Shown here: positions 12,663 to 40,273 of the stretch, in pieces
Layout of the letters: each line of letters begins with the position of its first letter
Numbering within the stretch: the first letter of the stretch is position 1
NCBI GenBank assembly: GCA_902794825.1
Contig: CADBIU010000031.1
Location: forward strand, 1-40,779
DNA from: an uncultured Lachnospiraceae bacterium
GTDB lineage: Bacteria > Bacillota > Clostridia > Lachnospirales > Lachnospiraceae
Length of the DNA stretch: 40,779 bases
Reading direction: 5' to 3'
Notes under the pieces: generated by a model
The model's input: only the letters and a program-made list of their open reading frames with translations
Told to the model about the DNA's origin: nothing
The model's database searches: none
Program-made: the position numbers and the translations under genes

Positions 12663-12887
12663 GGGGCACATGGCATATTGAATTCGTGTGGTTTCACTAT
12701 GATCTTCTGCTGCGCTGCGGAGAGAACCGGCACCGAAACTTGACGGCCGCTCTTTATGACCGGCCGTCTTCGGACAACGGGCCTCTCGGTCGGCAGGAGC
12801 TGCCTCCCTCGTTCTCTTCTTCGCTTGCAGAAGATCAAGTGAAAGCCAACACTCATTCAAAATGTTTGCATCAGGACCATGTGCCCC
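12663..12887 (-). repeat. Palindromic structured repeat, copy A
   Basis: Member of a three-copy family in this window. Nested complementary arms: GGGGCACATGG/CCATGTGCCCC (12663-12673 with 12877-12887, exact), TTTCACT/AGTGAAA, and GATCTTCTGC/GCAGAAGATC (12701-12710 with 12827-12836, exact). An apical hairpin (12742-12768) has stem GACGGCCG/CGGCCGTC and loop GTCATAAAGAG read on the minus strand. A second small hairpin is GGCAG-CTC-CTGCC. Orientation is assigned by the shared core. Open frames over it are by-products of the palindrome. Confidence 0.8.
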
Positions 12888-13106
12888 TCCCTTTCAGATA
12901 TCGACTGCTTGCAGCCCGGAGGCTGACTCTCCAAGTGGTCCATCTACCGGGGAGCATTTTCAAATCCGATGGGTGCCGGAAAACTTGTTTCGTGGGTGTA
13001 CCCCATCCTCGGACATGCTTTGCTAAATTCCGATGGAGTCCAACAAGCTTCTTCCTATTACCAGACCATTCCCATAGGATCTTCAATGTCTATCGGCATC
13101 CGATAA
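12888..13106. other. Spacer between repeat copies A and B, no gene seen
   Basis: About 220 bp of mixed composition between the two inverted repeat copies. It has a weak internal direct repeat (AAATCCGATGGGTG and AAATTCCGATGGAG) but no frame I trust and no good promoter. Both copies face away from it, so if they are transcribed their promoters should lie here. Confidence 0.4.
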
Positions 13107-13122
13107 CCTGAGCGCCGGAGAG

Positions 13123-13345
13123 ATATACCCTTTAACAAGCCCTTTCCTTGAGTGCCGGATGAACCAAATCGATTCTCTGCGCAGGAGGGAATGAGGGAGG
13201 CAGCTCCTGCCGACCGAAAGCCAGCATGTTTGAGCAGCCCGGTCATAAAGACCGGGCTGCGAGTTTCTGATGTGCGGTTCCCTCCTGCGCGGGGAATCGA
13301 TTTATGTGAATCCAACGGAAAGGAACGGGCTTTTAAAGGGTATAT
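13123..13345 (+). repeat. Palindromic structured repeat, copy B
   Basis: Same family, opposite orientation to copy A. Arms: ATATACCCTTTAA/TTAAAGGGTATAT (13123-13135 with 13333-13345), AAATCGATTC/GAATCGATTT (13166-13175 with 13294-13303, exact), GCGCAGGAGGGAA/TTCCCTCCTGCGC. The apical hairpin (13234-13260) has stem GCAGCCCG/CGGGCTGC with loop GTCATAAAGAC. Weaker complementarity continues outward to about 13107 and 13361. The core at 13193-13214 is identical over 22 bp to the inverted core of copy A (12789-12810). Confidence 0.8.
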
Positions 13346-13412
13346 GTCTCCGTAGCGTAGGTTTACGTATCACGCTTTCCCGCATCACCACGACTTATTG
13401 AGTGTTTCTCAC

Positions 13413-13444
13413 AAAAAAGGGGCATGCAAACCGCATGCCCCTTC
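13413..13444 (-). terminator. Intrinsic terminator of glyA
   Basis: Stem GGGGCATGC/GCATGCCCC (13419-13441), followed on the minus strand by TTTTTT (13413-13418), 29 bp past the glyA stop. Confidence 0.92.
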
Positions 13445-13472
13445 ACAGGTTTTCCTATATTCGATTTCTCGC

Positions 13473-14711
13473 TCACACCAGCGGATACTTATCCGTGATA
13501 GTCTTGATGATCGCCTGCGCCTCTTCGATGCCGGCTTCCTGCTTCTTGATGACGATGGAGATCGCCTCAGCTACGCGGTCGAAATCCTCAGTGTTAAGGC
13601 CTCTTGTGGTTGCCGCGGGGGATCCGAGACGGATGCCGCTGGTCACGAAAGGAGATCTCTGCTCATTGGGGATCGTGTTCTTGTTGGCCGTGATGTGCGC
13701 CTCATCCAGAAGCTTCTCAACCTGCTTGCCGGTAAGACCCGTGCGGGTCAGGTCGACGAGCATGAGGTGGTTGTCTGTGCCGCCGGAGACGATGTCGATG
13801 CCTCTGGCCTGCAGTCCCTTGCAAAGTGCCTGCGCGTTGTCGAGAACGTTCTGTGCGTAGACCTTGAAGGAAGGATCAAGAGCTTCCTTGAAGCAGACAG
13901 CCTTGGCCGCGATCACGTGCTCGAGGGGGCCGCCCTGGATGCCGGGGAATACAGCTTTGTTGAAGTTATACTTCTTGGCCGCTTCCTCGTTGGCGAGGAT
14001 CATGCCGCCTCTGGGACCTCTGAGGGTCTTGTGGGTCGTGGTTGTCACAACATCTGCATAGGGGAAGGGACTCGGATGAAGTCCTGCCGCTACAAGGCCC
14101 GCGATATGAGCGATATCAGCCATGAGGACTGCGCCGCAAGCGTCGGCAGCTTCCCTGAACTTCTTAAAGTCGATCGTTCTTCCGTAAGCGGAAGCGCCTG
14201 CGATGATCAGCTTCGGCTTTGCCTCTATCGCGATCCTCTTGAGCTCGTCATAGTCGATGAAGCCGTTCTCATCCACGCCGTAAGGAACGATATTGAAGTA
14301 AGTGCCGGAGATGTTGGCAGCGCTGCCGTGTGTGAGATGGCCGCCCTGATTGAGGTTCATGCCCATCAGAGTATCGCCGGGCTTTAAGATGGCAAATTCT
14401 ACAGCAAGGTTTGCCTGGGCGCCGGAATGAGGCTGCACGTTTGCGTAATCACAGCCGAACAGCTTCTTGGCTCTCTCAATAGCAATGGTCTCTATTTCAT
14501 CGATCACATAGCATCCGCCGTAATATCTTTTGCCGGAGTATCCTTCTGCGTATTTATTGGTAAGAGGACTTCCCATCGCGGCCATCACAGCCTTGCTGGT
14601 CCAGTTCTCAGAGGCGATCAGCTCGATATGGTCATTCTGTCTCTTGATTTCTTTTTCAATGGCAGCCGCGATCTCCGGGTCTGTCATTCTTACTTCCTCG
14701 ATCGAATACAT
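13473..14711 (-). CDS. glyA: Serine hydroxymethyltransferase
   Basis: A 412-residue cytoplasmic PLP enzyme that interconverts serine and glycine with tetrahydrofolate, the main source of one-carbon units. Visible signatures are [20 protein letters not shown] at the N-terminus, [16 protein letters not shown], the active-site lysine motif [16 protein letters not shown], and the C-terminal [21 protein letters not shown]. Length matches the family. The ATG at 14711 follows AGGAGGAG. It is monocistronic, with its own promoter at 14778-14806 and a terminator after the stop. Confidence 0.98.
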
Positions 14712-14777
14712 TTAACTCCTCCTGTGTGAGTGTTTTTCCAGACGGACATTTGTCTTTTTTTAAAGTCGCCAAAATGT

Positions 14778-14806
14778 AGTATAGCAAGGTCCCACGGGCA
14801 CTGCAA
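14778..14806 (-). promoter_or_regulatory. Promoter of glyA
   Basis: TTGCAG (14801-14806), 17-bp spacer, TATACT (14778-14783) on the minus strand, giving a leader of about 60 nt. Confidence 0.75.
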
Positions 14807-14956
14807 GAGAATCTTCCACTAAAACAAAAGCGCAGGATCAGCCTCGCATTGTTCAAAATACATCCTAAAGCCTTGTTTTTCCTAAACATACATACGATTC
14901 CCCGATGATTTCCCTGCTTTTTAGCGTAATACTGTGCCTTTATTTTTGTACACCTC

Positions 14957-14985
14957 TTGATTTTTCTATTTTTTGGTTGTAGTAT
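14957..14985 (+). promoter_or_regulatory. Promoter of the PAP2-like gene
   Basis: TTGATT (14957-14962), 17-bp spacer, TAGTAT (14980-14985). The rest of the glyA/PAP2 intergenic region (14807-14956) shows nothing else recognisable. Confidence 0.6.
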
Positions 14986-15047
14986 GTCTGTCGATAAACC
15001 TGAAAATGAAATTGAGTATTTTGAAAACCATAAGAGGTGATTTTGCA

Positions 15048-15785
15048 ATGAAAGAACTTATTTGGGATTCGGGATACGGATTTGGTCCGCTCGCCGGCAA
15101 GTCAATGCCGGAGATCGTTCGCTATAAAGCGAAACTTGCAGCTCCGATGGCGGCGTACGGGGTGTTCTACCTTGTGACGTTTGCCCTGATCGAGAACTGG
15201 AACCGGCTTCACTACACGGTGATCCACACAGCAGTAGACGACATGATCCCCTTCTGCGAGGTATTCATAATCCCGTATCTGATGTGGTTTGTATATGCCT
15301 TCGGTTTTGCATTCTACATGTTCCTGCAGGATGAAAAGAGTTATCACGAGGTCGCAGCATTCCTTGTGATCGGAATGACCGTCTTTCTGGCCGTCTCCGT
15401 CTTCTTCCCGAATATTTTGCTGCTCAGGCCGGAAACAATGCCGCGAAACAATATTTTCACGTACATGGTCGAGCGGTTATACGCAGTTGATACCCCCACT
15501 AATGTAACTCCGAGCATTCACGTCTACAATTCTCTGGCCGTGATGATCGCTGTGTGGAGGACAGACGCGAAGCTGGTGCGCTCTAAGATGAGCAAGATCC
15601 TCATGACAGTCCTCGGCTTTCTCATCATTCTGTCAACGATGTTCCTCAAGCAGCACTCGTTCTCAGATGTGATCATCGCCACAGGGCTTGCGCTTTTCTC
15701 CTATATCCTCGTATACAGACTCGGATTTGTATTCGTAGGCAAGGAACGGCGCAGAGTTATCTATGAATCCGTATTCGAACACTAA
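15048..15785 (+). CDS. PAP2-superfamily membrane phosphatase-like protein
   Basis: A 245-residue protein with about six membrane helices. The second half carries the PAP2 pattern: TPTNVTPSIHVYNSLAV fits the SxH motif and KQHSFSDVIIATGLALF fits the last (HxxxD) motif, with lysine-arginine elements before. These enzymes remove phosphate from lipid substrates (undecaprenyl pyrophosphate, phosphatidic acid) or act as inositol-phosphoceramide-synthase-like transferases; the substrate cannot be told here. The start at 15048 is chosen because GAGGTG lies 9 nt upstream and the upstream in-frame codons look non-coding. Single gene with its own promoter and terminator. Confidence 0.8.
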   Translation: MKELIWDSGYGFGPLAGKSMPEIVRYKAKLAAPMAAYGVFYLVTFALIENWNRLHYTVIHTAVDDMIPFCEVFIIPYLMWFVYAFGFAFYMFLQDEKSYHEVAAFLVIGMTVFLAVSVFFPNILLLRPETMPRNNIFTYMVERLYAVDTPTNVTPSIHVYNSLAVMIAVWRTDAKLVRSKMSKILMTVLGFLIILSTMFLKQHSFSDVIIATGLALFSYILVYRLGFVFVGKERRRVIYESVFEH

Positions 15786-15805
15786 ATTGTAAACTGAACA
15801 ACTTT

Positions 15806-15842
15806 AATAAAAAAGAGCAGGCACAGCGCCTGCTCTTTTTTG
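15806..15842. terminator. Bidirectional intrinsic terminator
   Basis: Stem AGAGCAGGC/GCCTGCTCT with A-run before and TTTTTT after (15814-15842). It serves the PAP2-like gene (plus) and the LCP gene (minus). Confidence 0.9.
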
Positions 15843-15851
15843 ATTCTTTTT

Positions 15852-17414
15852 TCATTTCTGCGCGGTTTCAACGGTTTCCGTGCTCTCCGTATTGGTCGTA
15901 TAGCCTTCGCTCATGATCATTTCGATCCTTGCCTTATTGACCTTGACGCTCGCGTCGTCGGGCCACATAACATACAGAGGCGTGCTGCCTGCCGAGTATG
16001 TGGTCTCAAGAGCGCTTTCGCCCTGCTCCGCCGACTGCTTCATGATCTCCCAGCTCGCGTTGTCAGAGAGCTGCATGTTGACGAGTTCTGCGATCTTCTC
16101 CTGAGGAATGTTGAGCTGGAAGAAACCGTCCAGACTGTCCAGGATATCCGCGTAGTGAGGCAGGATCGCAGGGGAGATCAACTTCTCGATAAGTGCCTTG
16201 AGCACCTGCTCCTGGTTGCGGCCTCTCTGGTTATCGCCGTCCGCGAAGCTGTATCTCTCGCGGCAGAATGCCAGAACCTGGTCACCGAACATGTCGTGCC
16301 ATCCCTTGTCGAAATGGTATTCGTCTGTATAGCAGTCGAACGGATACTCGACGTAAACATCCAGACCGTCCATCGCGTCGACCAGTTTGATCAGCGTATC
16401 GAAGTTTACACGGACGAAATAAGTGATATCAATGCCGTAGAGTTCCTCAAGGGTTCTCATAGACGCGTCCACGCCGTAGATACCTGCGTGCGTGAGTTTA
16501 TCTCTGACGCCGTTTGATACTTCCGGAATCGGGACGAAATAGTCACGAGGCGTGGAGGTCAGCAGCACTTTCTTGGTCTTGGGATTGACAGTTACGATGA
16601 TGTTGACGTCGCTTCGGCTCGTCTGGGAAATATCTCCGTAGACGTCAATTCCGCTGATCAGGACGTTGAAAGGTTCTCCGACGTTGACAGTCTCCTTAAC
16701 GATGCTCGTCTGGATACCGTACTGATAGAGAACTCTCACCTTATCCTCGTATTCGTCGTCGTCGAGGGATTCCGCTATGACCGATGTATAGGCCTTATTG
16801 TAGATCGCGGCGTCCACCTTGCCCTCCAGAAGGGCCCTGGCCGCCTCCACGTCACTGTTGTACGATTCCACCTTGACCTTGGTGGAGAGCGCCGACTCGA
16901 TGTCGCTTATCATTTCGCCGCTTGCGCCTTCAGTGACCGATCCGTGCATGGCAAATTTGTAGTCCTTGGCGTCCTTGAGAACTTCCGCAGGATCATTGGC
17001 TCTTACCACCACGACCATATTGTCTGTCTTCTGGGCCTTGTCGCCGCTCGAGATCAGTCCCATGGTCCTGTTAAAATAGCGCGTAAATACCAGCACCATT
17101 ATGATCACTACAGTGCTGATCCCTATGCCGACCAGCCGGACTTTTCTGTTCCGCTTCAGATTCAGCATGAACGTTGCAGCGGCCAAAAGAGCCAGGACTG
17201 CAAAGATCAGTACCATGTATTTCCAGGGAAGCATTCCCGTCCTGCCGACGGTAATGATCATGATCAGAGATATGATCACCTGAAGGATAAACATGACCCT
17301 TCCGCTTATCCTGATATATCTGTTTATCTTCTTGCGCTGCGCTTTTTTTACGCTTGAAGCGCTTGTCTTTCTGGGGGGCCTTTTCTTCTGCGGGCTCACC
17401 TTATTACTGCTCAT
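15852..17414 (-). CDS. LytR-CpsA-Psr (LCP) family cell-wall glycopolymer ligase
   Basis: A 520-residue protein. A basic cytoplasmic start (PQKKRPPRKTSASS) is followed by three membrane helices (about 42-125). Next comes an extracytoplasmic insert (about 130-245) that looks like half of a solute-binding domain (NMVVVVRANDPAEVLKDAKD, EGKVDAAIYNKAYTSVIAES). The LCP domain follows: FNVLISGIDVYGD, the SRSDVN and TSTPRDYF arginine-aspartate motifs, and late RGRNQEQVLKALIEKL. LCP enzymes move undecaprenyl-linked teichoic acid or capsule polymers onto peptidoglycan. The extra binding-protein-like domain before the LCP domain occurs in some clostridial members. It starts 74 bp after proC's stop and may be co-transcribed with it; ribosome site AGGAG. 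Confidence 0.9.
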   Translation of the reverse strand: MSSNKVSPQKKRPPRKTSASSVKKAQRKKINRYIRISGRVMFILQVIISLIMIITVGRTGMLPWKYMVLIFAVLALLAAATFMLNLKRNRKVRLVGIGISTVVIIMVLVFTRYFNRTMGLISSGDKAQKTDNMVVVVRANDPAEVLKDAKDYKFAMHGSVTEGASGEMISDIESALSTKVKVESYNSDVEAARALLEGKVDAAIYNKAYTSVIAESLDDDEYEDKVRVLYQYGIQTSIVKETVNVGEPFNVLISGIDVYGDISQTSRSDVNIIVTVNPKTKKVLLTSTPRDYFVPIPEVSNGVRDKLTHAGIYGVDASMRTLEELYGIDITYFVRVNFDTLIKLVDAMDGLDVYVEYPFDCYTDEYHFDKGWHDMFGDQVLAFCRERYSFADGDNQRGRNQEQVLKALIEKLISPAILPHYADILDSLDGFFQLNIPQEKIAELVNMQLSDNASWEIMKQSAEQGESALETTYSAGSTPLYVMWPDDASVKVNKARIEMIMSEGYTTNTESTETVETAQK

Positions 17415-17488
17415 TTACGTTACTCCTATTAAGAAAAACACAATATCCTAATAAAGATACTCCTTAAATCCGACAAATGCAATCATTA

Positions 17489-18301
17489 TCAGTTTTTTTC
17501 GGCGTTCATTTGAGCAGATTTTTCAATACAGGCCTCTGTTCCCTCAATTATTGCGCTGCGGAGCCCTAATTCTTCGAGAACCCTGACCGCTTCTATAGTG
17601 GTCCCGGCAGGTGAGCACACCATGTCCTTGAGTTCTCCGGGGTGTTTGCCTGTCTCCAGCATCATCTTCGCGCTGCCCAGCACAGCCTGTCCGACAAATC
17701 TGTAAGCCTGCGCTCTGGGCATTCCCGCAAGAACCGCCGCGTCCGCCATAGCCTCCATCATCATGAACACATAGGCGGGAGAGCTCCCGCTGACGCCCGT
17801 CACTGCGTCAAAGAGAGTTTCCGGCACTTCTTCAAACAGACTGAAAGTCCTGATGAGATCTCCGACCTTTTCCATCTCTTCCGCGCTCACCTCCGCGCTG
17901 CAGCAGGCGGCCGTCATTCCTGCCCCCACAAGCGCCGGCGTGTTGGGCATTAAACGGATGATTCGGATCTTTTTACCCAGCATCTTCTGGTAATATGCGA
18001 TGCTCCGGCCTGCGACTATACTGACAAGAAGCTGATCTTTTGTGATCACATCCCTGATCTCATTAAGCACGTCGTCCAGAAACTGCGGCTTGACGCTGAA
18101 GAACAGAATCTGCGCTTGTGCGGCAACTTCTCTGTTATCTCCGGTCATCTCTATGCCGTAAAGAGAAGCCGCGCGATCCCTGCTTGACTGGGAGTGGTCG
18201 GCTCCGATTATGTCCTCTGCCGCCATCTTTTTTCCAGCCAGAATCCCGCCGATCATAGCTCCGCCCATATTACCTACGCCAATAAATCCCAGTTTTTTCA
18301 T
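17489..18301 (-). CDS. proC: Pyrroline-5-carboxylate reductase
   Basis: A 270-residue enzyme for the last step of proline synthesis: NAD(P)H-dependent reduction of pyrroline-5-carboxylate. It has the Rossmann start KKLGFIGVGNMGGAMIGGIL and the family signature around GVSGSSPAYVFMMMEAMADA with LKDMVCSPAGTTIEAVRVLE. The ATG at 18301 is used because AGGAGG sits 6 nt before it; 11 more upstream codons are in frame but lack a site. It is divergent from the lipoprotein gene at 18415, and the two promoters overlap in the short intergenic region. Confidence 0.96.
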   Translation of the reverse strand: MKKLGFIGVGNMGGAMIGGILAGKKMAAEDIIGADHSQSSRDRAASLYGIEMTGDNREVAAQAQILFFSVKPQFLDDVLNEIRDVITKDQLLVSIVAGRSIAYYQKMLGKKIRIIRLMPNTPALVGAGMTAACCSAEVSAEEMEKVGDLIRTFSLFEEVPETLFDAVTGVSGSSPAYVFMMMEAMADAAVLAGMPRAQAYRFVGQAVLGSAKMMLETGKHPGELKDMVCSPAGTTIEAVRVLEELGLRSAIIEGTEACIEKSAQMNAEKN

Positions 18302-18345
18302 ATTTCCTCCTATATTCTCTCCGGTTTCCGGCACTTGCCTATTAC

Positions 18346-18357
18346 CCCTTCGAAGGG
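18346..18357. promoter_or_regulatory. Palindrome in the proC/lipoprotein divergent promoter region
   Basis: CCCTTCGAAGGG, a perfect 12-bp palindrome within TACCCCTTCGAAGGGTA, next to the -10 boxes of both directions. A possible operator; no known regulator matched. Confidence 0.35.
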
Positions 18358-18358
18358 T

Positions 18359-18388
18359 ATTCTACAATAAAAGTCAGATTTTTCCCAA
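18359..18388 (-). promoter_or_regulatory. Probable promoter of proC
   Basis: TTGGGA (18383-18388), 18-bp spacer, TAGAAT (18359-18364) on the minus strand. A TACAAT box on the plus strand at 18363-18368 overlaps it and may serve the divergent gene. Confidence 0.5.
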
Positions 18389-18414
18389 CATATATGTATC
18401 GAGGTATTTTTATA

Positions 18415-20283
18415 ATGATCCTTTTTAAAAGGCGCCGCATCGGCGCGCTGTTCCTGATAATAATGTCCGCGCTCCTCATGGCCTCCTGCGGAAGTGGAAA
18501 TGAGCAGTCCGACGTGATGCGTGAGATCACAGAAAATCTCTCCTCAATGAAAGCCGATTCAGCGAAGGATCAGGGCGCGCTCTACGAGATCACACAGCTG
18601 ACCTCCCCGGAGAACAACGCAGTTCTGTGCTGCACCGGCCTCTATGATGAGTCCCGTCTGCTTCTCATTACCGCAAATCCGGACAGTCAGGGCGTCGTCT
18701 CTTCCTATACCGCGCAGTTACTGGACCTTTTGAGAGGAGAAAAGGAGGAGCTAACCTCATTCGACCGCGCTCAGGTAAAGGAGCGCCGCTTAGACGGGAC
18801 TGAGGGCCTCTCTGTGATCTCCTGTGATCCTCTGGTAATCTTCGACAGCCGCGGCGGTGTTATCTACCTGCCGGATACTCCCGCAGGCAGGGTCATCCTG
18901 CCCTCTTTCCTCTCAGACGCGGTACCCTGCTGTCTGAACGGGCGCCTATGGCTGTCCTCCGCAAGGGGCATTGTGTACGAAGTCACCGAAGACGGGGAAC
19001 TGCGTGTCTCATGGACTCTCCCCTGTGAATTTGGCGCCTTCACGCCCGTAATATGCGGCCACGAGGGCCGGCTCTCTTTTGCCACCTATTCGCGGCGCGA
19101 TCCCTCCCTGCAGGTCTACGTCGACGTAGATCCCGAATCAGGTGAGAGCGAATACTACCTTTCCGATATCAATCCATCCCGCTTCACCGTCACTGACAAA
19201 GGGCGCCTTCTGGGATCATCCTTCAGGACAAAGCCTGTGATCTCCGTCTGCGACCGGTCCGGACAGGTCAAAAGAGAGATGGAGCTTCCGGGCGATGTCC
19301 TCTCTGTGATCGGAGCAGACAATTCCTCGAAAGAGACAGATTCTTTCCTGGCTTTCAGCACTTTTCCCCGCTCTCTCTGCGGAGACTGGTGCCTGTGGGC
19401 TTTGTGCGACGACGCCGGGAGGCCCGCGCGCGTTTATCTTTGGGATACCTCTTCCTGCCGCGCTGTCAAGTGGGAGGCGCCCTCGAGTTCCGAGTACAGT
19501 GCGCCCGAAACATTTAGTTACGATTCTCTCACCGAAAAAGCCGGGAAACTGGAGGATCGATACGGAATCCGCATCCTGATCGGCGCCAACGTCCCGGCTG
19601 AGTTCTCTGATTACACCGCGGAAGCCTGCACGGACTCCGCCGTCATTGACGGCTCGCTGTCAGTACTGGAAAACGTGCTTTCCCTTTACCCCGACACTTA
19701 TTTCACGCAGCTAAAGGGTGGTTATTACAGGAACATCGCAGTCTATCTGACCGGAGCCCTGCATCCGCTGGATGCCTCGAGCAATATTTCCAACGCAAGT
19801 GCCTTCGCGACAGAGTCCGGCGGGACGATGCAGCTCGCTTTCGACCTTGGCGACGACCTGAGCCCCGACACGGTGATCCACGAGCTCACCCACGCGGCGG
19901 ATTACCGCTTCGCGGGAGAAGAGCTTTTAAACGAGGACGAATGGAACTCCATGAACCCCGAAGGTTTCTCATACTACTATTCTTACATCAATGAAAAGGG
20001 AGAGAGTTATGAAACTGCGGGGAGCCTTGAGAATACCGCGGTGAGCGGATGTCCCGCGGACGACGTCTGGTTCATCGATCCCTACAGCAAGACTTATCCC
20101 ATGGAGGACCGGGCGCGCCTGATGGAGACCTTGTTATCCGGCAGAACGCCTTACTCAGGCTGTTTTCAAGGCCGGCACATACAGGAAAAGCTCTCCTTCT
20201 ATTTCCGTTTCCTCAGAGAAACCCTGGACGACGGTTCCTGGCCTTCCCGCACTTCATGGGAGGATGCGCTCTACAGCAGCTGA
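18415..20283 (+). CDS. Lipoprotein with C-terminal HELTH zinc-metallopeptidase motif
   Basis: A 622-residue exported protein. The signal peptide (LFKRRRIGALFLIIMSALLM) ends in lipobox MASC, so it should be lipid-anchored outside the membrane. Residues ~40-360 form repeated short beta strands (RLLLITANPDSQG, GGVIYLPDTPAG, GRLWLSSARGIVYEVTEDGE) that suggest a beta-propeller-like fold. The last third contains DTVIHELTHAADYRF, an HExxH zinc-binding motif, and later DPYSKTYPMEDRARLMETLL, which fits the ED-containing helix of related putative peptidases. A surface-anchored protease or peptidase-like receptor is likely; substrate unknown. ATG at 18415 is chosen over an upstream in-frame ATG because GAGGT precedes it. 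Confidence 0.75.
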   Translation: MILFKRRRIGALFLIIMSALLMASCGSGNEQSDVMREITENLSSMKADSAKDQGALYEITQLTSPENNAVLCCTGLYDESRLLLITANPDSQGVVSSYTAQLLDLLRGEKEELTSFDRAQVKERRLDGTEGLSVISCDPLVIFDSRGGVIYLPDTPAGRVILPSFLSDAVPCCLNGRLWLSSARGIVYEVTEDGELRVSWTLPCEFGAFTPVICGHEGRLSFATYSRRDPSLQVYVDVDPESGESEYYLSDINPSRFTVTDKGRLLGSSFRTKPVISVCDRSGQVKREMELPGDVLSVIGADNSSKETDSFLAFSTFPRSLCGDWCLWALCDDAGRPARVYLWDTSSCRAVKWEAPSSSEYSAPETFSYDSLTEKAGKLEDRYGIRILIGANVPAEFSDYTAEACTDSAVIDGSLSVLENVLSLYPDTYFTQLKGGYYRNIAVYLTGALHPLDASSNISNASAFATESGGTMQLAFDLGDDLSPDTVIHELTHAADYRFAGEELLNEDEWNSMNPEGFSYYYSYINEKGESYETAGSLENTAVSGCPADDVWFIDPYSKTYPMEDRARLMETLLSGRTPYSGCFQGRHIQEKLSFYFRFLRETLDDGSWPSRTSWEDALYSS

Positions 20284-20293
20284 CCGGAATCTG

Positions 20294-21034: not shown

Positions 21035-21044
21035 AATCCTTACC

Positions 21045-23600: not shown

Positions 23601-23629
23601 AGCCTCTCCTTTGCCTTATAAGAATCAGG

Positions 23630-24766: not shown

Positions 24767-24782
24767 GTCGCTCCTCGCTGTT

Positions 24783-28706: not shown

Positions 28707-28808
28707 TCCCGCGTCGCTCCTTCCCGTTTCACAAAAATTATAGCAAATAAGAAGGCATTACTCCATGAATTAGTCCATATATTAGTCTGCGAAAAGATCC
28801 GCGTGCTC

Positions 28809-28838
28809 AAAAAAAGGAGCAGCCTCGGCTGCTCCTTT
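28809..28838 (-). terminator. Intrinsic terminator of the lipoprotein gene
   Basis: Stem GGAGCAGCC/GGCTGCTCC (28816-28835), followed on the minus strand by TTTTTTT. It separates the 29-kb lipoprotein gene from the LRR-VWA-MoxR run. Confidence 0.92.
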
Positions 28839-28869
28839 CCCATACCTCTTCAGGTACCCGTATTCTGTT

Positions 28870-29796: not shown

Positions 29797-29914
29797 ACTC
29801 TTCCTCCAAAACTTATTTCTCATTCGTAACCGGGAAGCCCCGGCGCGCACAGAGCACTGCCGGGATCATCCTATATAATATACGTATTTCATCCGCTTTC
29901 GGCACGCTGTTGCA

Positions 29915-29954
29915 GAAAAAACGGCTCTCTGCCGCCTTCACGGTAGAGAGCCGT
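29915..29954 (-). terminator. Intrinsic terminator of galE
   Basis: Stem ACGGCTCTCT.CCG / CGG.AGAGAGCCGT, followed on the minus strand by TTTTTT, 23 bp past the galE stop. Confidence 0.92.
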
Positions 29955-29977
29955 CCGATTCCCGTTCCCTGGGTTTA

Positions 29978-30994: not shown

Positions 30995-31045
30995 GGTGTA
31001 AAAACAATGTATTTTTGGATCCAAAATATACCCTGTTGTATTTTT

Positions 31046-33210: not shown

Positions 33211-33277
33211 TTTTCACATAATCTCCTAATATGATCGATAAATCAGAAGATTATTATATCACTTTAACCCTTCGCCG

Positions 33278-33811
33278 TCACTGCAGAGCCATGGTTTTAA
33301 CTCTGTTCAGCGCATTGGATACTACCGGAATACTGATGAAGATCAATACGATCACTGCCTCACCCGCAATGTAAATGATATTGTACACTGCGGAATAAGC
33401 TGCCGCGTTCCATCCCTCCCAGGCATATTCGCCAAAGAAGATCCAGCCGGAAAGAAAAGCGAAAAACCAGCGTCCGATACACGCGGCAATGTAGCCCTTC
33501 TGGTATCCGAACTTCTGGCCCGCAAAGAAACCGGAGAGGCCGAAAGCCGCAAACGCAAGGCCGTAATCAATAAAGACCTGCACAGGTGTCAAAATATAGG
33601 GACCAAGGAAGAACTGAAGGATCCCGTGGGCGAATCCTGCCGCGATCCCCACTGCAGGGCCGAAAAAGAAGCCCGGAAGAGTCGCGAAAAACGTAGACGC
33701 CAGTGTAATGGACCCCCCGGTGGGGAACTCAAACACCTTGATCATACTGGTCACACTGGCCAGTGCGATGCACATTGCGCTAAAGACGAGAACTTTGATA
33801 CTTTTGGACAT
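33278..33811 (-). CDS. thiT: Thiamine ECF transporter substrate-binding subunit
   Basis: A 177-residue membrane protein with about six helices, the S component that binds thiamine and works with the shared EcfA-EcfA'-EcfT module (not in the window). ThiT features are PTGGSITLASTFFATLPGFF, LGPYILTPVQVFIDYGLAF, and the C-terminal GWIFFGEYAWEGWNAAAYS whose aromatic and acidic residues fit the thiamine pocket. The ATG at 33811 lies after AAGGAGG and a T-run, inside an expression-platform hairpin. A TPP riboswitch just upstream confirms the substrate and predicts shut-off when thiamine is plentiful. Confidence 0.94.
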   Translation of the reverse strand: MSKSIKVLVFSAMCIALASVTSMIKVFEFPTGGSITLASTFFATLPGFFFGPAVGIAAGFAHGILQFFLGPYILTPVQVFIDYGLAFAAFGLSGFFAGQKFGYQKGYIAACIGRWFFAFLSGWIFFGEYAWEGWNAAAYSAVYNIIYIAGEAVIVLIFISIPVVSNALNRVKTMALQ

Positions 33812-33839
33812 AAAAAAACCTCCTTTGTTGTACAGGAGG
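33812..33839 (-). terminator. Riboswitch expression platform: hairpin holding the thiT ribosome site
   Basis: CCTCCT (33834-33839 read on minus) pairs with AGGAGG (33819-33824), followed by TTTTTTT and then the thiT ATG. The same hairpin hides the Shine-Dalgarno and looks like an intrinsic terminator. Confidence 0.75.
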
Positions 33840-33904
33840 AGAGTTGGTTCACAGCACTTCAAACAAATCACAGAACCGGCTTAAAGCCGCTAGTCATTCA
33901 AGTA

Positions 33905-34010
33905 CTGTGCGCTTCCTTTCGCCGGCATTACCCGGATCAAGTAATAAGGGTCAGCCGCTCCGCTCCTGCGAACGGGCCGCTGTCTCAGCATCCGCTCCCC
34001 CAGCAAGTAT
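33905..34010 (-). promoter_or_regulatory. TPP riboswitch (THI element)
   Basis: On the minus strand: GGGGGAGC, then the invariant CTGAGA, GACCCTT, TTGATCCGGGTAATGCCGG and CGAAAGGAAGC, in the order of the TPP aptamer. The pyrimidine-sensing and pyrophosphate-sensing helices are both present. It controls thiT. Confidence 0.95.
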
Positions 34011-34023
34011 TGTTTACTCTAGT

Positions 34024-34052
34024 AAAGTACTACGTTGAACTGTAATTGTCAA
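34024..34052 (-). promoter_or_regulatory. Promoter of thiT
   Basis: TTGACA (34047-34052), 17-bp spacer, TACTTT (34024-34029) on the minus strand, just upstream of the riboswitch. Confidence 0.75.
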
Positions 34053-34074
34053 TGAACAAATCGGCTCTGATATT

Positions 34075-34117
34075 GAAAAACGCCGCTGCAATTACCGGAA
34101 TCGGTAATTGCAGCGGC
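34075..34117 (-). terminator. Intrinsic terminator of the HPr-LDH gene
   Basis: Stem GCCGCTGCAATTACCG / CGGTAATTGCAGCGGC (34082-34117, near perfect), followed on the minus strand by GTTTTT. Confidence 0.93.
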
Positions 34118-34144
34118 ATCTGTTTACTCATTTACAGGTTTTCT

Positions 34145-35443
34145 TCACTTCACCTCTGACATTCCGTAAGGAAGTCCTTCGTTGAAGTTTCTCGCATTCT
34201 CCATAGTGACTGCGGCGATAGCCTGCAGCGCTTCTCTGGTAAAGAACGCCTGGTGAGAAGTAAGTACCAGGTTCGGGAACATTGTCAGTCTTGCTACGAT
34301 GTCTGTGTCGATCATCTCATCGGATCTGTCATTGTAGACGTTGGCATCCTCGCCCTCGTAGACGTCCAGCGCGACAGCGTGGAACTTGTTCGCCTTAAGG
34401 CCTCTGATCAGCGCTTCGGAATCTACAAGAGGTCCGCGGGAGGTATTGACGAGCATGACATTGTTCTTCATCATGGCGATCGCATTGTCGTCGATCAGGT
34501 GATATGTTCCGTTCGGGCCCATGACCAGCGGAGCGTGCAGGGAGATGAGATCCGCCTTCTGCAGAAGTTCTTCCTTGGAGACATATCTCAAAAGTCCCTT
34601 CTCCTCAAGAGCCATATTCGGGAATGCATCCCATCCCAGGACGGTCATGCCGTAACCCTTGCAGATATTGGCCATGATCTGGCCGATCCTGCCGGTGCCC
34701 ATGATGCCGGCTACCTTGTTGTGAAGATCCAGTCCCAGAAGTCCGCTCAGCGCGAAGTTGTTGTCCTGAACCTTGATGTAGGACTTGTGAATGCGGCGGT
34801 TTGCTGCCTGAAGGATCGTCATTGCGTGCTCAGCTACTGCATAGGGGGAATAGGCGGGGACACGAAGAACAGTGATTCCGCACTCTGCGGCAGCCTTGGA
34901 GTCAACGTTGTTGAATCCTGCGCAGCGAAGGAGAATGAGTTTAACGCCGCCCTCCGCCAGGATCTCAATAACTTCACGGGGCGCTTCGTCATTGACGAAA
35001 ATGCAGACCGCGTCGTAACCCTTAGCCAGGTTTGCAGACTCAATGGTCAGACGGCTGTTGAAATACTTGATGTCGACATTGTAAGTGCCCTCTCCCTTGT
35101 CTCTGGAGAGTTCGCTGAAGAAAATGCGGTCATAATCCTTGGTGCCGAAGAACGCGACCCTGAGGACTGTATTCTTCTTGGCCTTGGGAGCGATCTCCTT
35201 GAGCACTTCCTGGATCTTGGCGATCGCCTCTTCCTCATCGGGACCGTCAGCAGTAATGTTCAGGATAGAACCCTTAGCCGCGTGTAGGGCGAGGATCTGA
35301 AGAACGTTATTGCCGGAGGCAACATTTCCATTGCACTCGATCATGACTGCACTCTTGAAGTTGGTGCATGCCTGGGCAAGAAGTGCCGCGGGACGCGCAT
35401 GAATTCCGAGCGAGTTCTTGACAGTATACTGCAGGTCTTTCAT
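34145..35443 (-). CDS. HPr-domain fused to D-lactate dehydrogenase
   Basis: A 432-residue two-domain protein. Residues 1-88 are an HPr phosphocarrier: SLGIHARPAALL puts the phosphorylatable histidine exactly at 15, but the HPr-kinase site at 46 is Asn (GNVASGNNVLQILAL). From about 90 it is a D-2-hydroxyacid (D-lactate type) dehydrogenase: LRVAFFGTKDYDRIFF, LRCAGFNNVDSKAA (substrate arginine), NAD motif GIMGTGRIGQIM, NTSRGPLVDSEAL and the catalytic histidine in LTSHQAFFT. D-LDH reduces pyruvate with NADH in fermentation. Fusion to HPr suggests control by PTS phosphorylation. The start at 35443 fits the domain and a GAAGGG site. Own promoter and terminator; no internal break. Confidence 0.93.
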   Translation of the reverse strand: MKDLQYTVKNSLGIHARPAALLAQACTNFKSAVMIECNGNVASGNNVLQILALHAAKGSILNITADGPDEEEAIAKIQEVLKEIAPKAKKNTVLRVAFFGTKDYDRIFFSELSRDKGEGTYNVDIKYFNSRLTIESANLAKGYDAVCIFVNDEAPREVIEILAEGGVKLILLRCAGFNNVDSKAAAECGITVLRVPAYSPYAVAEHAMTILQAANRRIHKSYIKVQDNNFALSGLLGLDLHNKVAGIMGTGRIGQIMANICKGYGMTVLGWDAFPNMALEEKGLLRYVSKEELLQKADLISLHAPLVMGPNGTYHLIDDNAIAMMKNNVMLVNTSRGPLVDSEALIRGLKANKFHAVALDVYEGEDANVYNDRSDEMIDTDIVARLTMFPNLVLTSHQAFFTREALQAIAAVTMENARNFNEGLPYGMSEVK

Positions 35444-35503
35444 TTCTTTTTCCCTTCTTTTGTTATGTGTAGTGGATAGCTTCAAACATAATATGCTATT
35501 GTC

Positions 35504-35532
35504 ATTATATACAAAATATACTATTAGTTCAA
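35504..35532 (-). promoter_or_regulatory. Promoter of the HPr-LDH gene
   Basis: TTGAAC (35527-35532), 17-bp spacer, TATAAT (35504-35509) on the minus strand. Strong; leader of about 55 nt. Confidence 0.85.
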
Positions 35533-35617
35533 TGAAAAACCGTTTGAATTAGGTGATTTTGACAATATTTTATTCTCCTGTATACTGCTCACCGCTTTGT
35601 GTACTTGATCCTGTGAA

Positions 35618-37621
35618 TTACCCCACATTACGCGTCGCGATCTTCCGGTACTGTGCCGGCGACACTTCAAACGTCTTCTTGAATACCCTGGAGAAGTGTT
35701 CCGCATTGGGATAGCCAATGGAATAAGAGATATTCTCGATCGTCATATTGCCGTTTCTGAGCAGCGTCTTGGCCCTTTTCATGCGGACTGACGTGACCTG
35801 CTCGCCGAAGGTCTTGCCGGATTTCTCACGGATGAACTTGGAGATATACGGCGTGGAGAGATGAAATTCCCTGGCCATGTCCTCGAGTGTAACTGTCTGA
35901 TAGTTGGCCTGGATGTAGTTGAGCATCGCGATCAGCCTGTTGTCCTTCTCCGTCGCGCTGTCCTGCAGCTGCGGGAGCTTATTGACCGCTACGACCAAAG
36001 CGTTGATCGAAGCGTGAATGATATCCTCGTGGATGCCTACGCCCCAGTATGTTTTGCCATTGCACAGGACGCTGACATAAGCCATAGCTTTGGAGGAAGA
36101 GCCTCTGGAAAGCGCATGCTCCTCGTAAGTGGAGAGCTCATAGCTGATCCCGTAATACTGCTTGATGGTATTGCTGACCGCGTCCAGACGGCCGTTTCCG
36201 TTCGCGTCCACGACAGTCCTGTTGTCTCCGGCCGCGATCGTCGCCTCTGCCATAATGCCGTCTGCCTGGCGGAAATGGCACTCCGGGATCGTAAAGTGAG
36301 GCGTGTAGTCCACATATCTGTCTGTGAAGATCTCGTAAACAGCCTGAGGCGCAAGCTCGCTGTGAGTCTCGTCCGAAACCTGCTTCACGGCGTAACCGAC
36401 TTCCTCTCTCATCTTCTCAGGCAGCACGATCGCGTAGTTCTGCCTCAGCACATATGCTACGCCGCCCTTTCCGGACTGACTGTTGATGCGGATAACGTCT
36501 GAATCGTATGTCCTCGAGACATCCTGCGGGTCGATGGGAAGATAAGGAACTGTCCACTTGTTGGGATCGTTCTTCTCCTTGTAGGCCATGCCCTTGGAGA
36601 TCGCGTCCTGGTGGGAGCCGGAAAACGCGCTGAAGACCAGATCCCCTGCATAGGGCTGTCTGGGATGCACATCCATTCCGGTCAGTCTCTCATATTTTTC
36701 GCGGATCTGCGGCATATTGGAGAAATCCAGTTCAGGGTCGATCCCGTAGGAGAAGAGATTCATCGCTACAGCAACCAGATCGACGTTTCCGGTTCTCTCG
36801 CCGTTTCCGAACAGCGTACCCTCGACGCGGTCCGCGCCCGCAAGGATGCCGAGTTCCGTATCCGCCACGCCGCAGCCGCGGTCGTTGTGCGGATGAAGAC
36901 TGAGGACGACGCCGTCCCTGTATTTCATATTCTTATTCAGGTACTCGATCTGGGAAGCGAAAATATGAGGCATCGCCGTCTCGACCGTGGCAGGAATGTT
37001 AATGATAGCTTTCCACTCAGGGGTAGGTTTCCAGACGTCCAGCACCGCGTTGCAGACTTCCAGCCCGTACTCCACCTCGGTCCCGTGGAAGCTCTCAGGG
37101 CTGTATTCGAACATGAAGTTGCCGTCGGTCTCGTCCGCCAGTTCCTTGAGGAGCTTCGCGCCGTCTACCGCGAGTTTCTTGATCTCTTCTTTGTTCTTTT
37201 TAAAGACCTGTTCCCGCTGCGCAACGGAAGTGGAATTATAGAGATGGACCACCGCCTTCGGCGCTCCCTTGACCGCTTCAAAAGTCTTGCGGATGATGTG
37301 CTCCCTGGCCTGGGTAAGAACCTGGATCGTGACATCGTCCGGGATCATGTTCCTCTCGATGAGAGCGCGAAGGAAGGTGTACTCCGTCTCCGAAGCGGCG
37401 GGGAATCCCACCTCGATCTCCTTAAAGCCGATGTCTACCAGCATGCGGAAGAATTCGATCTTCTCTTCGAGGCTCATGGGCTCGATCAGCGCCTGGTTGC
37501 CGTCGCGCAGGTCGACGCTGCACCAGATCGGAGCCTTCTCGATATGATCCTTTTTCGCCCAGTCCAGACACTCTTCCGGAGGGAGAAAATATTGACGCAT
37601 GTACTTCCTGTAGTTCATCAT
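35618..37621 (-). CDS. leuA: 2-isopropylmalate synthase fused to an AraC-type DNA-binding domain
   Basis: A 667-residue protein. Residues 1-~555 are a complete LeuA of the long type: IWCSVDLRDGNQALIEPMSL (metal and substrate site), VVHLYNSTSVAQREQVFKKN, LHPHNDRGCGVADTELGILA, FGNGERTGNVDLVA, and a leucine-regulatory domain (TVVDANGNGRLDAVSNTIKQ, HALSRGSSSKAMAYVSV). Residues ~560-660 are an AraC/XylS double helix-turn-helix: VTLEDMAREFHLSTPYISKF and MTIENISYSIGYPNAEHFSR, then KTFEVSPAQYRK. LeuA makes 2-isopropylmalate from acetyl-CoA and 2-oxoisovalerate in leucine synthesis. The frame is unbroken across the fusion. The added DNA-binding domain could let the enzyme sense leucine and control genes, which is inference. 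Ribosome site GAGAGGA. No other leu gene is nearby. Confidence 0.93.
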   Translation of the reverse strand: MMNYRKYMRQYFLPPEECLDWAKKDHIEKAPIWCSVDLRDGNQALIEPMSLEEKIEFFRMLVDIGFKEIEVGFPAASETEYTFLRALIERNMIPDDVTIQVLTQAREHIIRKTFEAVKGAPKAVVHLYNSTSVAQREQVFKKNKEEIKKLAVDGAKLLKELADETDGNFMFEYSPESFHGTEVEYGLEVCNAVLDVWKPTPEWKAIINIPATVETAMPHIFASQIEYLNKNMKYRDGVVLSLHPHNDRGCGVADTELGILAGADRVEGTLFGNGERTGNVDLVAVAMNLFSYGIDPELDFSNMPQIREKYERLTGMDVHPRQPYAGDLVFSAFSGSHQDAISKGMAYKEKNDPNKWTVPYLPIDPQDVSRTYDSDVIRINSQSGKGGVAYVLRQNYAIVLPEKMREEVGYAVKQVSDETHSELAPQAVYEIFTDRYVDYTPHFTIPECHFRQADGIMAEATIAAGDNRTVVDANGNGRLDAVSNTIKQYYGISYELSTYEEHALSRGSSSKAMAYVSVLCNGKTYWGVGIHEDIIHASINALVVAVNKLPQLQDSATEKDNRLIAMLNYIQANYQTVTLEDMAREFHLSTPYISKFIREKSGKTFGEQVTSVRMKRAKTLLRNGNMTIENISYSIGYPNAEHFSRVFKKTFEVSPAQYRKIATRNVG

Positions 37622-37752
37622 TGCTTTGTCCTCTCAATCTTTAGATACATTCGGTTTAAAATTTATCAAAAACCGTGATTAGATTTTATCTCCATGGACA
37701 AAGAATTAGAATGATTATATTTACTCTGTTTTGATGATTTAATTTAATACAA

Positions 37753-37785
37753 CAAAAAAGAAGCCGCATCCTGCGATGCAGCTTC
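37753..37785 (-). terminator. Intrinsic terminator of apt
   Basis: Stem GAAGCTGCATC/GATGCGGCTTC (37760-37785), followed on the minus strand by TTTTTT. Confidence 0.92.
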
Positions 37786-37806
37786 TCCACAGTGTCTTAT
37801 GAAATA

Positions 37807-38331
37807 TCATTTGCCTTCAAATGCAAGTACAGAATCCACGCGGTACCCTTCCAGGAACTTGCGGCCGTTCAGGCCTGCCAGTTCGATCATGAAGAGCATG
37901 TCGACGACTTCACCGCCCAGTTTCTCAACGAGCTGAGCCATAGCCTTAGCCGTTCCGCCGGTCGCCAGAAGGTCATCCACGACGAGGCATTTCTGTCCGG
38001 GCTGTATAGCGTCGATGTGCATTTCCAGTGTAGCCTTGCCGTATTCCAGATCATAATCCACAGAGATGGTCTTCCAGGGAAGTTTGCCTTTCTTGCGGAT
38101 CAGTACCAGCGGCTTATGAAGGTTGTAAGCCAGCGCGGCGCCGTAAATGAAGCCGCGTGATTCCGCGCCGACGATCACGTCAAAATCCAGATCCTTGATC
38201 AGCTCCTGCATGGAATCGATCGCGAGCTGAAGGCCGTCGGCATCCTGGAATACTGTTGTAATGTCACGGAACATGATGCCGGGCTCCGGAAAATCCGGAA
38301 TAGTACGGATATAATCTTCTAATTTCTTCAT
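37807..38331 (-). CDS. apt: Adenine phosphoribosyltransferase
   Basis: A 174-residue cytoplasmic salvage enzyme that makes AMP from adenine and PRPP. Signatures are IPDFPEPGIMFRDITTVFQD at the start, VGAESRGFIYGAALAY, LVLIRKKGKLPW and the PRPP-binding loop CLVVDDLLATGGTAKAM. Length is the family norm with the ATG at 38331, which follows AAAGGGG. A TATAAT box at 38382-38387 (minus) without a clear -35 may be its promoter; the L,D-transpeptidase gene lies 70 bp upstream, so read-through is also possible. Confidence 0.97.
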   Translation of the reverse strand: MKKLEDYIRTIPDFPEPGIMFRDITTVFQDADGLQLAIDSMQELIKDLDFDVIVGAESRGFIYGAALAYNLHKPLVLIRKKGKLPWKTISVDYDLEYGKATLEMHIDAIQPGQKCLVVDDLLATGGTAKAMAQLVEKLGGEVVDMLFMIELAGLNGRKFLEGYRVDSVLAFEGK

Positions 38332-38400
38332 GATTACCCCTTTTCTGTATGCATAGGTGTAGAGCTCTAAGAACATTATTTATTATAGCACGGCAGATGG

Positions 38401-39840
38401 TCACTGAGTATCCCCGTAATGGACCACGACAGGCATATTTTCGTAAACCAGTTCATAGATCGTCGGCATCACCTTCGGCGGAATGTTCACGCAGCCGTGG
38501 GAGCCGTTCCATTTCCAGATATTTCCTCCGAAAGAGTAACGCCAGTTCGCGTCATGAAGACCGATGCCGGTGTCCGTAAGACGGATCCAGTAATCCACCG
38601 GTGTCTCGTATCCCCATTCTCCGTCGTCCTGTTTGTCGCCCCTGAGAACTGTGTCTGTCTTTTTATCGTAGGCAAAAAATGCCCCCGCAGGTGTCTTGTG
38701 CTCTTTGTCGTTAAGGCCCGATACCACATCTGTTTCCAGGATCACCTCTCCGTCCTGATAGATCCACAGATGCTGTTTCGAGAGATCGACCTCCACATAG
38801 CTGCTGCCGAAGCCATGGTTGTCATCGGGCTCTGCCGCCTCCGTCCTGCGGTATACAGGCTCCCTCTCGACCTGTTCATTTTCGTCCAGTTCTTCCCACA
38901 GCTGCTCTTCTTCCTTTGTCTTGTCTATGCGGTAGCCATAGTAGCCCTTTCCGGGCACCATGATCTCATCGCCGTCGTGGGTGGTAAAGGCATGCTCTTT
39001 ATAGACCGTGTCTACCTCTTCTGCAAGTTCCTTTACATATTCCTCGAGGCACTCATCCCAGACGTCGTCGTCTCTGTAATAATCGCCCTCGTCGTCCACT
39101 TCCAGCCAGTCCTTGAGGATCGGTCCGTCCAGGACCTTGGTCGCACCGCCCGGCAGTTTGTAGACAACTCTGCCTCCGGCCAGCTCATTGAGCTGCTCTG
39201 CCTCTTCACCCAGATCTTCGTCATCTTTTCTGATCTCCGGATAACTGTAAATTCCTTCCGTGTTTCCCAGGTCGACGGAACCGATCTCCTTGTCGACAGC
39301 GGAGATCACCGTGCTTCTGACGAGCTCCGGATCCAGGGTTGTGCCCTCCACCTCCGGAATGACCGTAAAGGTACCGTCAACATAGCCAAGATGGGCGTCT
39401 TCCGGCGCGATCATGTTGGACTCATTCATCTGCGGCGCGGCGTTAAGGATCGCCAGGAGTTTCTCTTTGGAATACTCTTTTTTCTCGTTGATCTCGTGCG
39501 AGTTCTTTCTGAAAAGTCCGGCGCCCCACAAATACGGATTCTGCTGCTGCATCAGCGCGTCCAGTTTGCCGTCCGACACATAATGGTAATCTATTTCATC
39601 GTTAGAGACAGCCAGATCTTTTCCATCGCGGAATTTCAGGATCAGGCCGTAGTCTCCAAGCACTTCTTCCATTTCACTGACTGTGAGGCCGGAAGCATCC
39701 ACGCCGTTTATCACAGTACCGGGAATAAAAGTATCCCGAAATTCCAGCGCCTCATTGATATACAGGCTTCCCACAAGAGCGGCGGCTGACAGTACTGCCG
39801 CGATCGCTCCCTGCGCAAATTCGTTTTTTCTCTCGATCAT
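38401..39840 (-). CDS. L,D-transpeptidase (YkuD) with peptidoglycan-binding-like repeats
   Basis: A 479-residue membrane-anchored enzyme. One N-terminal helix (AIAAVLSAAALVGSLYI) is followed by a region of the VanW/PG_binding_4 type (FIPGTVINGVDASGLTVSEM, GTFTVIPEVEGTTLDPELV), an acidic stretch, and from about 345 the YkuD domain: SYVEVDLSKQHLWIYQDGEV, KTPAGAFFAYDKKTDTVL, and the catalytic cysteine in WNGSHGCVNIPPKVM. These enzymes form 3-3 cross-links in peptidoglycan or attach proteins to it, outside the membrane. The ATG at 39840 follows AGGAAT. A TATAAT box lies at 39893-39898 (minus) with a poor -35. Upstream stand a terminator and the structured repeat C. Confidence 0.92.
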   Translation of the reverse strand: MIERKNEFAQGAIAAVLSAAALVGSLYINEALEFRDTFIPGTVINGVDASGLTVSEMEEVLGDYGLILKFRDGKDLAVSNDEIDYHYVSDGKLDALMQQQNPYLWGAGLFRKNSHEINEKKEYSKEKLLAILNAAPQMNESNMIAPEDAHLGYVDGTFTVIPEVEGTTLDPELVRSTVISAVDKEIGSVDLGNTEGIYSYPEIRKDDEDLGEEAEQLNELAGGRVVYKLPGGATKVLDGPILKDWLEVDDEGDYYRDDDVWDECLEEYVKELAEEVDTVYKEHAFTTHDGDEIMVPGKGYYGYRIDKTKEEEQLWEELDENEQVEREPVYRRTEAAEPDDNHGFGSSYVEVDLSKQHLWIYQDGEVILETDVVSGLNDKEHKTPAGAFFAYDKKTDTVLRGDKQDDGEWGYETPVDYWIRLTDTGIGLHDANWRYSFGGNIWKWNGSHGCVNIPPKVMPTIYELVYENMPVVVHYGDTQ

Positions 39841-39995
39841 ATCCTATTCCTGTTTCCTCGTCCCCTCATTTCCCCAAGTGGTGCACTGTCCTATTATAGT
39901 CCCAAATATGATTGAGCGCACACAAAAAAATTTCTTTTTCTGAGGACTCGGCACTTTTTTTGCCGGTATGTGTTTTAACCCATCTTCGAGAACTG

Positions 39996-40055
39996 AAAAA
40001 GGGGCTGTCGCATTAAGCGTGAAGGTTCAAAACCTACGCTTTTGCGGCACGCCCC
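39996..40055 (-). terminator. Long terminator-like hairpin directly after repeat copy C
   Basis: On the minus strand: GGGGC, CGCA, AAGCGT, AGGTT pair in order with AACCT, ACGCTT, TGCG, GCCCC (40001-40055), followed by TTTTT (39996-40000). Its 5' half (40044-40055) is the same sequence that forms the outer 3' arm of repeat copy C. Confidence 0.8.
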
Positions 40056-40273
40056 TTTATCGTTACATTGAATTCGCGGGGATTCACACAGATCCTTCCT
40101 TCGCTTCGGAGGGAACCGCCTCTCCAAAACTCGCCGTCCGCTCTGATGACCGGACGTCTCAGACAGGTGGGCTTTCGGGCTGCAGGAACTGCAGCCCTCA
40201 TTCCCTCCTGCGCTCCCTCAGGATCCGGTTCATCCAGCCGCTCATTCAAAGCAACTCTAAAGGGACATGCCGC
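40044..40273 (-). repeat. Palindromic structured repeat, copy C
   Basis: Third family member, in minus orientation. Outer arms (40258-40273 with 40044-40059) pair as GCGGCATGTCCCTTTA / TAAAGGGGCGTGCCGC, using two G-U pairs on the minus strand. Inner arms: TTGAAT/ATTCAA, GCGG/CCGC, GGAT/ATCC, GGAGGGAA/TTCCCTCC. Apical hairpin 40135-40156 (CGTCCG/CGGACG, loop GTCATCAGAG) and a second hairpin 40177-40197 (GGGCTGCAG/CTGCAGCCC). Equal spacing to copies A and B without gaps over the core. Confidence 0.8.

Follow-up and report, generated by a model that had tools for sequence, protein, structure and literature searches.

IS1272, a member of the IS1182 family of insertion sequences (ISs), replaces inverted repeats without target duplication, according to an excerpt of PMC5678879, and a transposon bounded by IS1272 inserts into terminator hairpins and partly deletes them, according to an excerpt of PMC4923244. 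Here a palindromic module is described, three copies of which (A, B and C) lie in a 40,779-nucleotide (nt) stretch of DNA from an uncultured gut Lachnospiraceae bacterium (contig CADBIU010000031.1 of assembly GCA_902794825.1). This whole stretch is termed the window; it is contig C31 of the bacterium's own genome, labelled G000. Based on sequence comparison, the copies probably belong to a set of giant folded modules, specific to one strand, that form the ends of IS1182-like elements and of their gene-less derivatives, and that occur as solitary units too. The likeness to IS1272 consists in the transposase family (NF033551), the terminal hairpins and a mode of insertion in which the target, a hairpin or terminator, loses its own hairpin, whereas the ~190-nt folded module beside the terminal hairpin is not mentioned for IS1272 in the excerpts of the two reports (PMC5678879, PMC4923244). 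Within the genus of the window, most scanned IS1182-type loci themselves lack the module.

Miniature inverted-repeat transposable elements (MITEs; for example PMC5896051 and PMC6382973, each in part) resemble the units described below in being short and gene-less, with inverted ends and an end sequence common with an IS (as at loci L180 and L028), but here a large fold, strand-specific and with covariation like that of RNA, makes up each end, and no consistent target duplication was seen in the units inspected. The bridge RNA or seekRNA of IS110 elements likewise represents a structured non-coding IS end (excerpts of PMC11208160 and PMC11187229), yet the transposase here is of the DUF772/DDE_Tnp_1 class and the module stands at both ends of gene-less units as well as in solitary units. 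Bacterial stem-loop repeat families are likewise intergenic elements that recur and have a predicted structure in common; a survey of these covered 40 genomes (PMC2267715). No description of the module was found in the open-access literature, subscription papers and ISfinder not being covered, and the main text of PMC8040213, its tables left aside, makes no mention of 'transpos-' or Lachnospiraceae. We speak of an unusual folded addition to IS ends and MITEs, which are themselves known kinds.

Fold and strand of the module

The module is a hairpin of ~230 bp, whose ~190-nt core has a long stem, a central three-way junction and two further hairpins, a short second one and a third. The initial annotation had placed three copies in the window, and both their positions (Table 1) and the quoted stems were confirmed in the sequence; its core alignment 'without gaps' proved nearly gap-free, with a few short indels introduced by MAFFT. 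Its suggestion of building a covariance model from the copies and searching relatives led to many more of them: model R1, built from 28 copies that include all three in the window (172, 164 and 206 bits for A, B and C, respectively), gave matches at E ≤ 0.01 in 30 of the 62 searched genomes of the genus, with 12 in the own genome (included in the 30) and up to 41 in a single genome. The E-values of R1, like those of a second model, R2, are rough.

Covariation was tested by shuffles and by sliding of pairing partners on two alignments: A2, in which 28 copies were aligned by MAFFT with an RNAalifold structure and not fitted to the model, and A4, in which 93 distinct copies were aligned to R1 and are hence biased towards its structure. 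Before counting, 21 reverse-strand, partial or weak rows among the 117 of a larger alignment (A3), plus three identical cores, were excluded; near-identical copies were removed for the non-redundant sets. In A2, 94.2% of cells pair, versus 80.1% after shuffling and 34–49% with partners slid, and double-sided changes are found at 37 of 46 consensus pairs. The corresponding values for A4 are 92.1% versus 68.9% (shuffled), with double-sided changes at all 46 of 46 pairs and a covariation score of 0.621 versus 0.189, while core length is nearly constant at 181–195 nt. The earlier claim that the stems differ yet stay complementary through compensatory change, with a lack of covariation in a larger alignment named as one refuting outcome, is borne out over 93 copies. 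Judged from these alignments, the fold is under selection.

Certain unpaired letters are kept as well: UGUnUGnA before the third hairpin and GAGnU after it, each letter in 44–46 of 46 copies (<80% identity); the internal loop UGUYUGA / GAGUU is near-invariant. We know of no named motif with such an asymmetric loop. GU pairs make up ~5% of the pairs in the fold, a proportion that we judge to be low for a pure RNA fold. Comparison with Rfam gave no match at the copies, either at gathering score or at E ≤ 1–5 (two hits at L201 were far below gathering score, and others lay elsewhere), in keeping with the initial annotation, which had not recognised the family. Two copies are damaged: at G016 C11 (~106000) the centre of the module is lost, and at G024 C198 (~1300) a type 2 outer arm is fused to a type 1 outer arm, with all between them gone, as is expected of unstable palindromes.

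One strand of the module is favoured across the family, as judged from predicted folds. Among 53 copies (<85% identity), the forward strand folds more stably than its complement in 51, and GU pairs number 181 on the forward versus 62 on the reverse strand. With the invariant loop left out, 118 versus 51 GU pairs remain (46 copies, <80% identity), with a forward excess in 34 copies and a reverse excess in eight; the loop thus accounts for only part of the bias. At the consensus pairs of A4, GU outnumbers AC by 80 to 18 (46 copies, fitted to the model); in A2 (28 copies, unfitted) the contrast is weaker, at 36 to 12, which falls to 24 to 12 when the end pair is left out. The strand had originally been called from GU pairs in copy C on the minus strand. 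This call stands for copy C (five forward, one reverse) and for the family, yet copy B is even (six and six) and copy A opposite (none and three), while folding energy is lower on the forward strand for A, B and C alike. In G327, a genome of another genus, the forward fold is better in 11 of 11 copies tested.

IS1182-type ends, paired units and insertion sites

Copy C reads outward, with a terminal hairpin beyond its 3′ side and the start of an IS1182-type transposase gene ~100 bp past its outer stem on the 5′ side (Table 1). Only the first 58 bases of this gene are left in the window; the same start precedes longer open reading frames (ORFs) in relatives. The longer relative at L052 matches Pfam DUF772 and DDE_Tnp_1, and scores 231 bits with the NCBIfam IS1182 model (NF033551), below the 270-bit cut-off because it is truncated, while full-length relatives exceed the cut-off. 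The order hairpin–module–transposase was found at six loci, namely copy C, G016 C11 (the copy with deleted centre), G012 C55 and C30 (each with the gene start only, followed by the contig end), G068 C113 and G166 C19. The last of these, from another genus, has an intact 543-aa ORF beside the module, and its left end, terminal hairpin included, aligns with window positions 39998–40436 over 441 bp at 85% identity. By these alignments, copy C falls within the left end of an element of the IS1182 type.

Modules also occur as divergent pairs. Among the 151 R1 matches listed, 20 same-contig pairs with a gap of <1 kb were found, all 20 in the order (−) then (+); the count was taken from the match list since many of the fetched loci had been chosen for holding pairs. 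The pairs in G327 (four of four) show the same order. At L180 and L028 the pair begins with ~300 bp of an IS1182 left end, module included (80–82% identity), and finishes with a second module plus 48–53 bp of the IS1182 right terminal hairpin (85–89%); by these matches, both units are gene-less IS1182 derivatives. In five pairs of G001 and G043 the left copies cluster together and the right copies likewise, the behaviour expected of left and right ends. The A/B pair of the window consists of one module of each type. The spacers of 12 pairs were inspected, with no library scan, and hold only open frames of ≤104 aa without recognised start or family. The spacer between A and B contains part of another repeat family (GATGG...CCCCATCC), which also adjoins module copies at G012 C22 and C45, in tandem units in G012.

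Solitary units prevail in G047, where most copies stand singly, each with its own outer stem, and where the ends are sharp in two subfamilies (GGG...CCC and GCCATATC...GATATGGC). The G327 units consist of two modules and a non-coding spacer enclosed by a different terminal repeat (TTGCTGTTTAG). No consistent target-site duplication was seen in the four G327 units or the three solitary G047 units inspected. An impression, from one flank, that G327 units are surrounded by host palindromes was rejected, as a direct test was negative for three of four units; at L353 an 11-base match was equalled by two of 300 shuffles.

Sites with and without modules point to mobility. A pair of ~740 bp at G000 C56 is absent at G012 C3, where the flanks are 99% and 93% identical and 45 bp with a terminator-like hairpin stand in its place; a similar hairpin is present in G023 and G021. 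At L156 a terminator hairpin is likewise missing where the unit stands, less certainly so (flank identity 76%). The A/B stretch is absent at G023 C34 and G021 C214, while its counterpart at G012 C22 has B, no A, and tandem units of the GATGG...CCCCATCC family. At G043 C24, an IS1182 copy (544-aa ORF) lies inside a module, at the expected site of the third hairpin. Identical module cores occur at different loci within one genome (G024 C77 and C20) and between two genomes (G012 C55 and G068 C113), an indication that these have moved recently. Other copies may have been inherited instead, since the gene neighbourhood is the same at L161 and L164 (G049, G044) and at L041, L123 and L183 (G012, G070, G045), but most fetched loci share none.

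The initial annotation had offered a MITE-like mobile palindrome as the alternative to a structured RNA. This is supported by the position of copy C in an IS1182-type end, by the discrete paired units and by module-free sites, whereas a consistent target duplication is lacking in the units inspected; the two options are not mutually exclusive.

Table 1. Positions of the module copies and associated features in the window.
Feature	Positions	Strand	Remarks
Copy A with outer stem	12663-12887	minus	core 12675-12863; type 2 module, left member of divergent pair
Spacer of A/B pair	12888-13122	none	contains part of another repeat family (GATGG...CCCCATCC)
Copy B with outer stem	13123-13345	plus	core 13141-13328; type 1 module, right member of pair
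IS1182-type terminal hairpin	40001-40055	minus	begins GGGGCTGTCGCA; inner half doubles as 3′ outer arm of copy C
Copy C with outer stem	40044-40273	minus	core 40065-40252; type 1 module in left end of IS1182-type element
IS1182-type transposase gene, first codons	40379-40436	plus	interrupted by IS200-type insertion; family named via longer relative in L052
IS200/IS605-type insertion	40437-40779	minus	ends at contig end; tnpA 3′ part 40575-40778; outside the module

Distribution and gene context

Beyond the genus, R2 identified the module in at least four of 397 genomes drawn from the family: the own genome, G166 (one match), G281 (two) and G327 (two). Six candidates per genome were scored in these wide searches, so absence from them is weak evidence. 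Three other genera of Lachnospiraceae carry remote or transferred copies. A deeper search, which took in G327 and 40 further genomes, gave 20 matches in G327 and none in the rest. When public genomes were scanned with an exact pattern, 20 stretches were returned, 19 of them titled Lachnospiraceae and one Clostridia, several being ruminant-derived; viral contigs, scanned with one exact pattern, gave no match.

Among 41 solo copies for which both neighbouring genes were called, 18 lie between convergent, 22 between tandem and one between divergent genes (the calls are crude, based on the longest ORFs, and the convergent total includes one locus, L035/L126, twice). Copies between tandem genes show no bias in direction, with 10 one way and 12 the other, which speaks against a cis-regulatory leader. 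At G047 C37 (L154) and G012 C7 (L049), modules of differing type lie between apparent rsmG and parA genes, flanked on both sides by GTTTCACGTGAAAC sites that we take to be parS-like. In the window, the sole Rfam match above gathering score is a TPP riboswitch (33897–34011, minus).

Proposed mechanism and alternatives

These observations agree with a structured module that transposons carry at their ends. The ~190-nt module (~230 bp with outer stem) would form an end part of IS1182-like mobile DNA: where a transposase is present, it lies after the left terminal hairpin and before the start of the transposase gene, and in gene-less units two modules stand back to back round a non-coding spacer, each reading outward. 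Such elements would insert into hairpins such as terminators and replace them, as seen at one clean locus and from the IS1182 copy inside a module. The outward-reading strand would need to adopt the three-way junction, invariant UGUYUGA / GAGUU loop included, presumably because a protein, either transposase or host factor, recognises this fold. At both ends, the transferred strand of a DDE element and a read-out transcript would share the sense of the outward strand, and orientation thus cannot separate RNA from single-stranded DNA. If the module acts in this manner, RNA has about an even chance of being the acting form; single-stranded DNA is appreciably less probable, and something else less probable again. 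Hairpin-targeting elements drawn to each other's hairpins may have joined modules and terminal hairpins, and it is our guess that solitary units are moved in trans by an IS1182-type transposase.

Several observations weigh against an IS1182-type end as the general home of the module. At 19 of 20 scanned IS1182-family loci no module match lies within up to 1.5 kb, and the remaining one is an IS inserted into a module; IS1182-type genes can hence do without it. The genome-level association is weak, with IS1182-family matches in 14 of 30 module genomes versus nine of 32 genomes without modules, and in the module-rich G047 and G048 no such match was found at E ≤ 1e-10. Most G047 units lack the IS1182 terminal hairpins, and the G327 units have another terminal repeat, with no transposase found for them. 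Both G281 copies fold better on the reverse strand (two of two). The A/B pair aligns with the IS only in the module cores (105–150 bp, 75–78%) and not in the terminal hairpins; its origin from IS1182 is for this reason no firmer than likely.

One rival is an independent structured RNA gene family, trans-acting and with its own promoter, that happens to lie near IS1182-type elements or was picked up by them. Strong covariation, an invariant loop and a preferred strand are what such genes would display, many solitary copies are without IS1182 ends, and some copies sit in gene neighbourhoods common to two or three genomes. Yet genomes of a single genus differ widely in copy number (0 to 41), near-identical cores recur at different loci (G024 C77/C20; G012 C55/G068 C113), and relatives have sites without the module; nor was a common promoter-like sequence noticed upstream, although no promoter scan of the copies was made. 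On balance we consider this explanation unlikely.

The gene context and the lost hairpins bear on another proposal, in which the module is mobile, takes the place of host terminators and itself acts as a two-way terminator or insulator of transcription, the fold serving termination. Solo copies at gene 3′ ends, the hairpin gone at G000 C56 and less surely at L156, and outer stems that in some cases finish in A and T runs would all suit it. Termination would account for the outer stem but leaves the conservation of junction and loop unexplained, T runs are absent from many units, and a 3′-end position may merely reflect hairpin targeting, all of which makes the proposal very unlikely. Comparably slight is the chance that the module acts in transposition as an RNA: transcribed outward from an IS1182-like element and folded around the UGUYUGA / GAGUU loop, it would be bound by the DDE transposase and help this enzyme to find or replace hairpin targets. 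If true, a DDE transposase would have an RNA cofactor, which to our knowledge is so far known for other enzyme classes such as IS110.

Repetitive extragenic palindromic (REP) sequences and the composite elements built from them (bacterial interspersed mosaic elements, BIMEs) are likewise intergenic palindromic repeats, often in divergent pairs. A REP-like DNA hairpin repeat, moved as single-stranded DNA by a Y1 transposase of the REP-associated tyrosine transposase (RAYT) type, would explain a strand-specific hairpin in intergenic DNA, and modules are present in 20 of the 24 genus genomes listed with long RAYT-like Y1 ORFs. At the loci themselves the link fails: a module stands beside the gene at none of 40 loci (40 of the 44 listed), only four hits at chance level being obtained, the palindromes that flank the Y1 genes in loci inspected are different ones, bearing GGGGACGGTTCTC or ACCCCAGAGGTC motifs, and G047, with 16 module matches, has no Y1 match. 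The module, at ~230 bp, also differs in size from REPs of 20–40 bp (excerpt of PMC3733652), and we regard such an origin as highly improbable. RAYT-like Y1 genes with palindromes of their own, distinct from the module, were noted at L281, L287, L291 and L292 (G001, G043, G048) and at L284, L288 and L294 (G070, G012, G045).

Long palindromes are prone to template-switching repair events, and the centre loss and arm fusion in the two damaged copies would agree with arms kept alike by such DNA repair with no selection for the fold, but this is barely credible, as mismatched internal loops and junction letters stay constant while the arms change (repair towards a perfect palindrome would erase them) and GU is favoured over AC on one strand.

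If the module is, as we favour, a folded end part of IS1182-like elements, it departs from the usual transposon end, a short repeat read as double-stranded DNA, in being a ~190-nt fold kept by compensatory changes. The conserved fold and loop call for a partner that binds them, and for a stage at which RNA or DNA is single-stranded while the IS moves or is controlled. The hairpin-replacing insertion of the IS1182 family is itself little understood, and the module family provides a large natural set of compensatory mutants.

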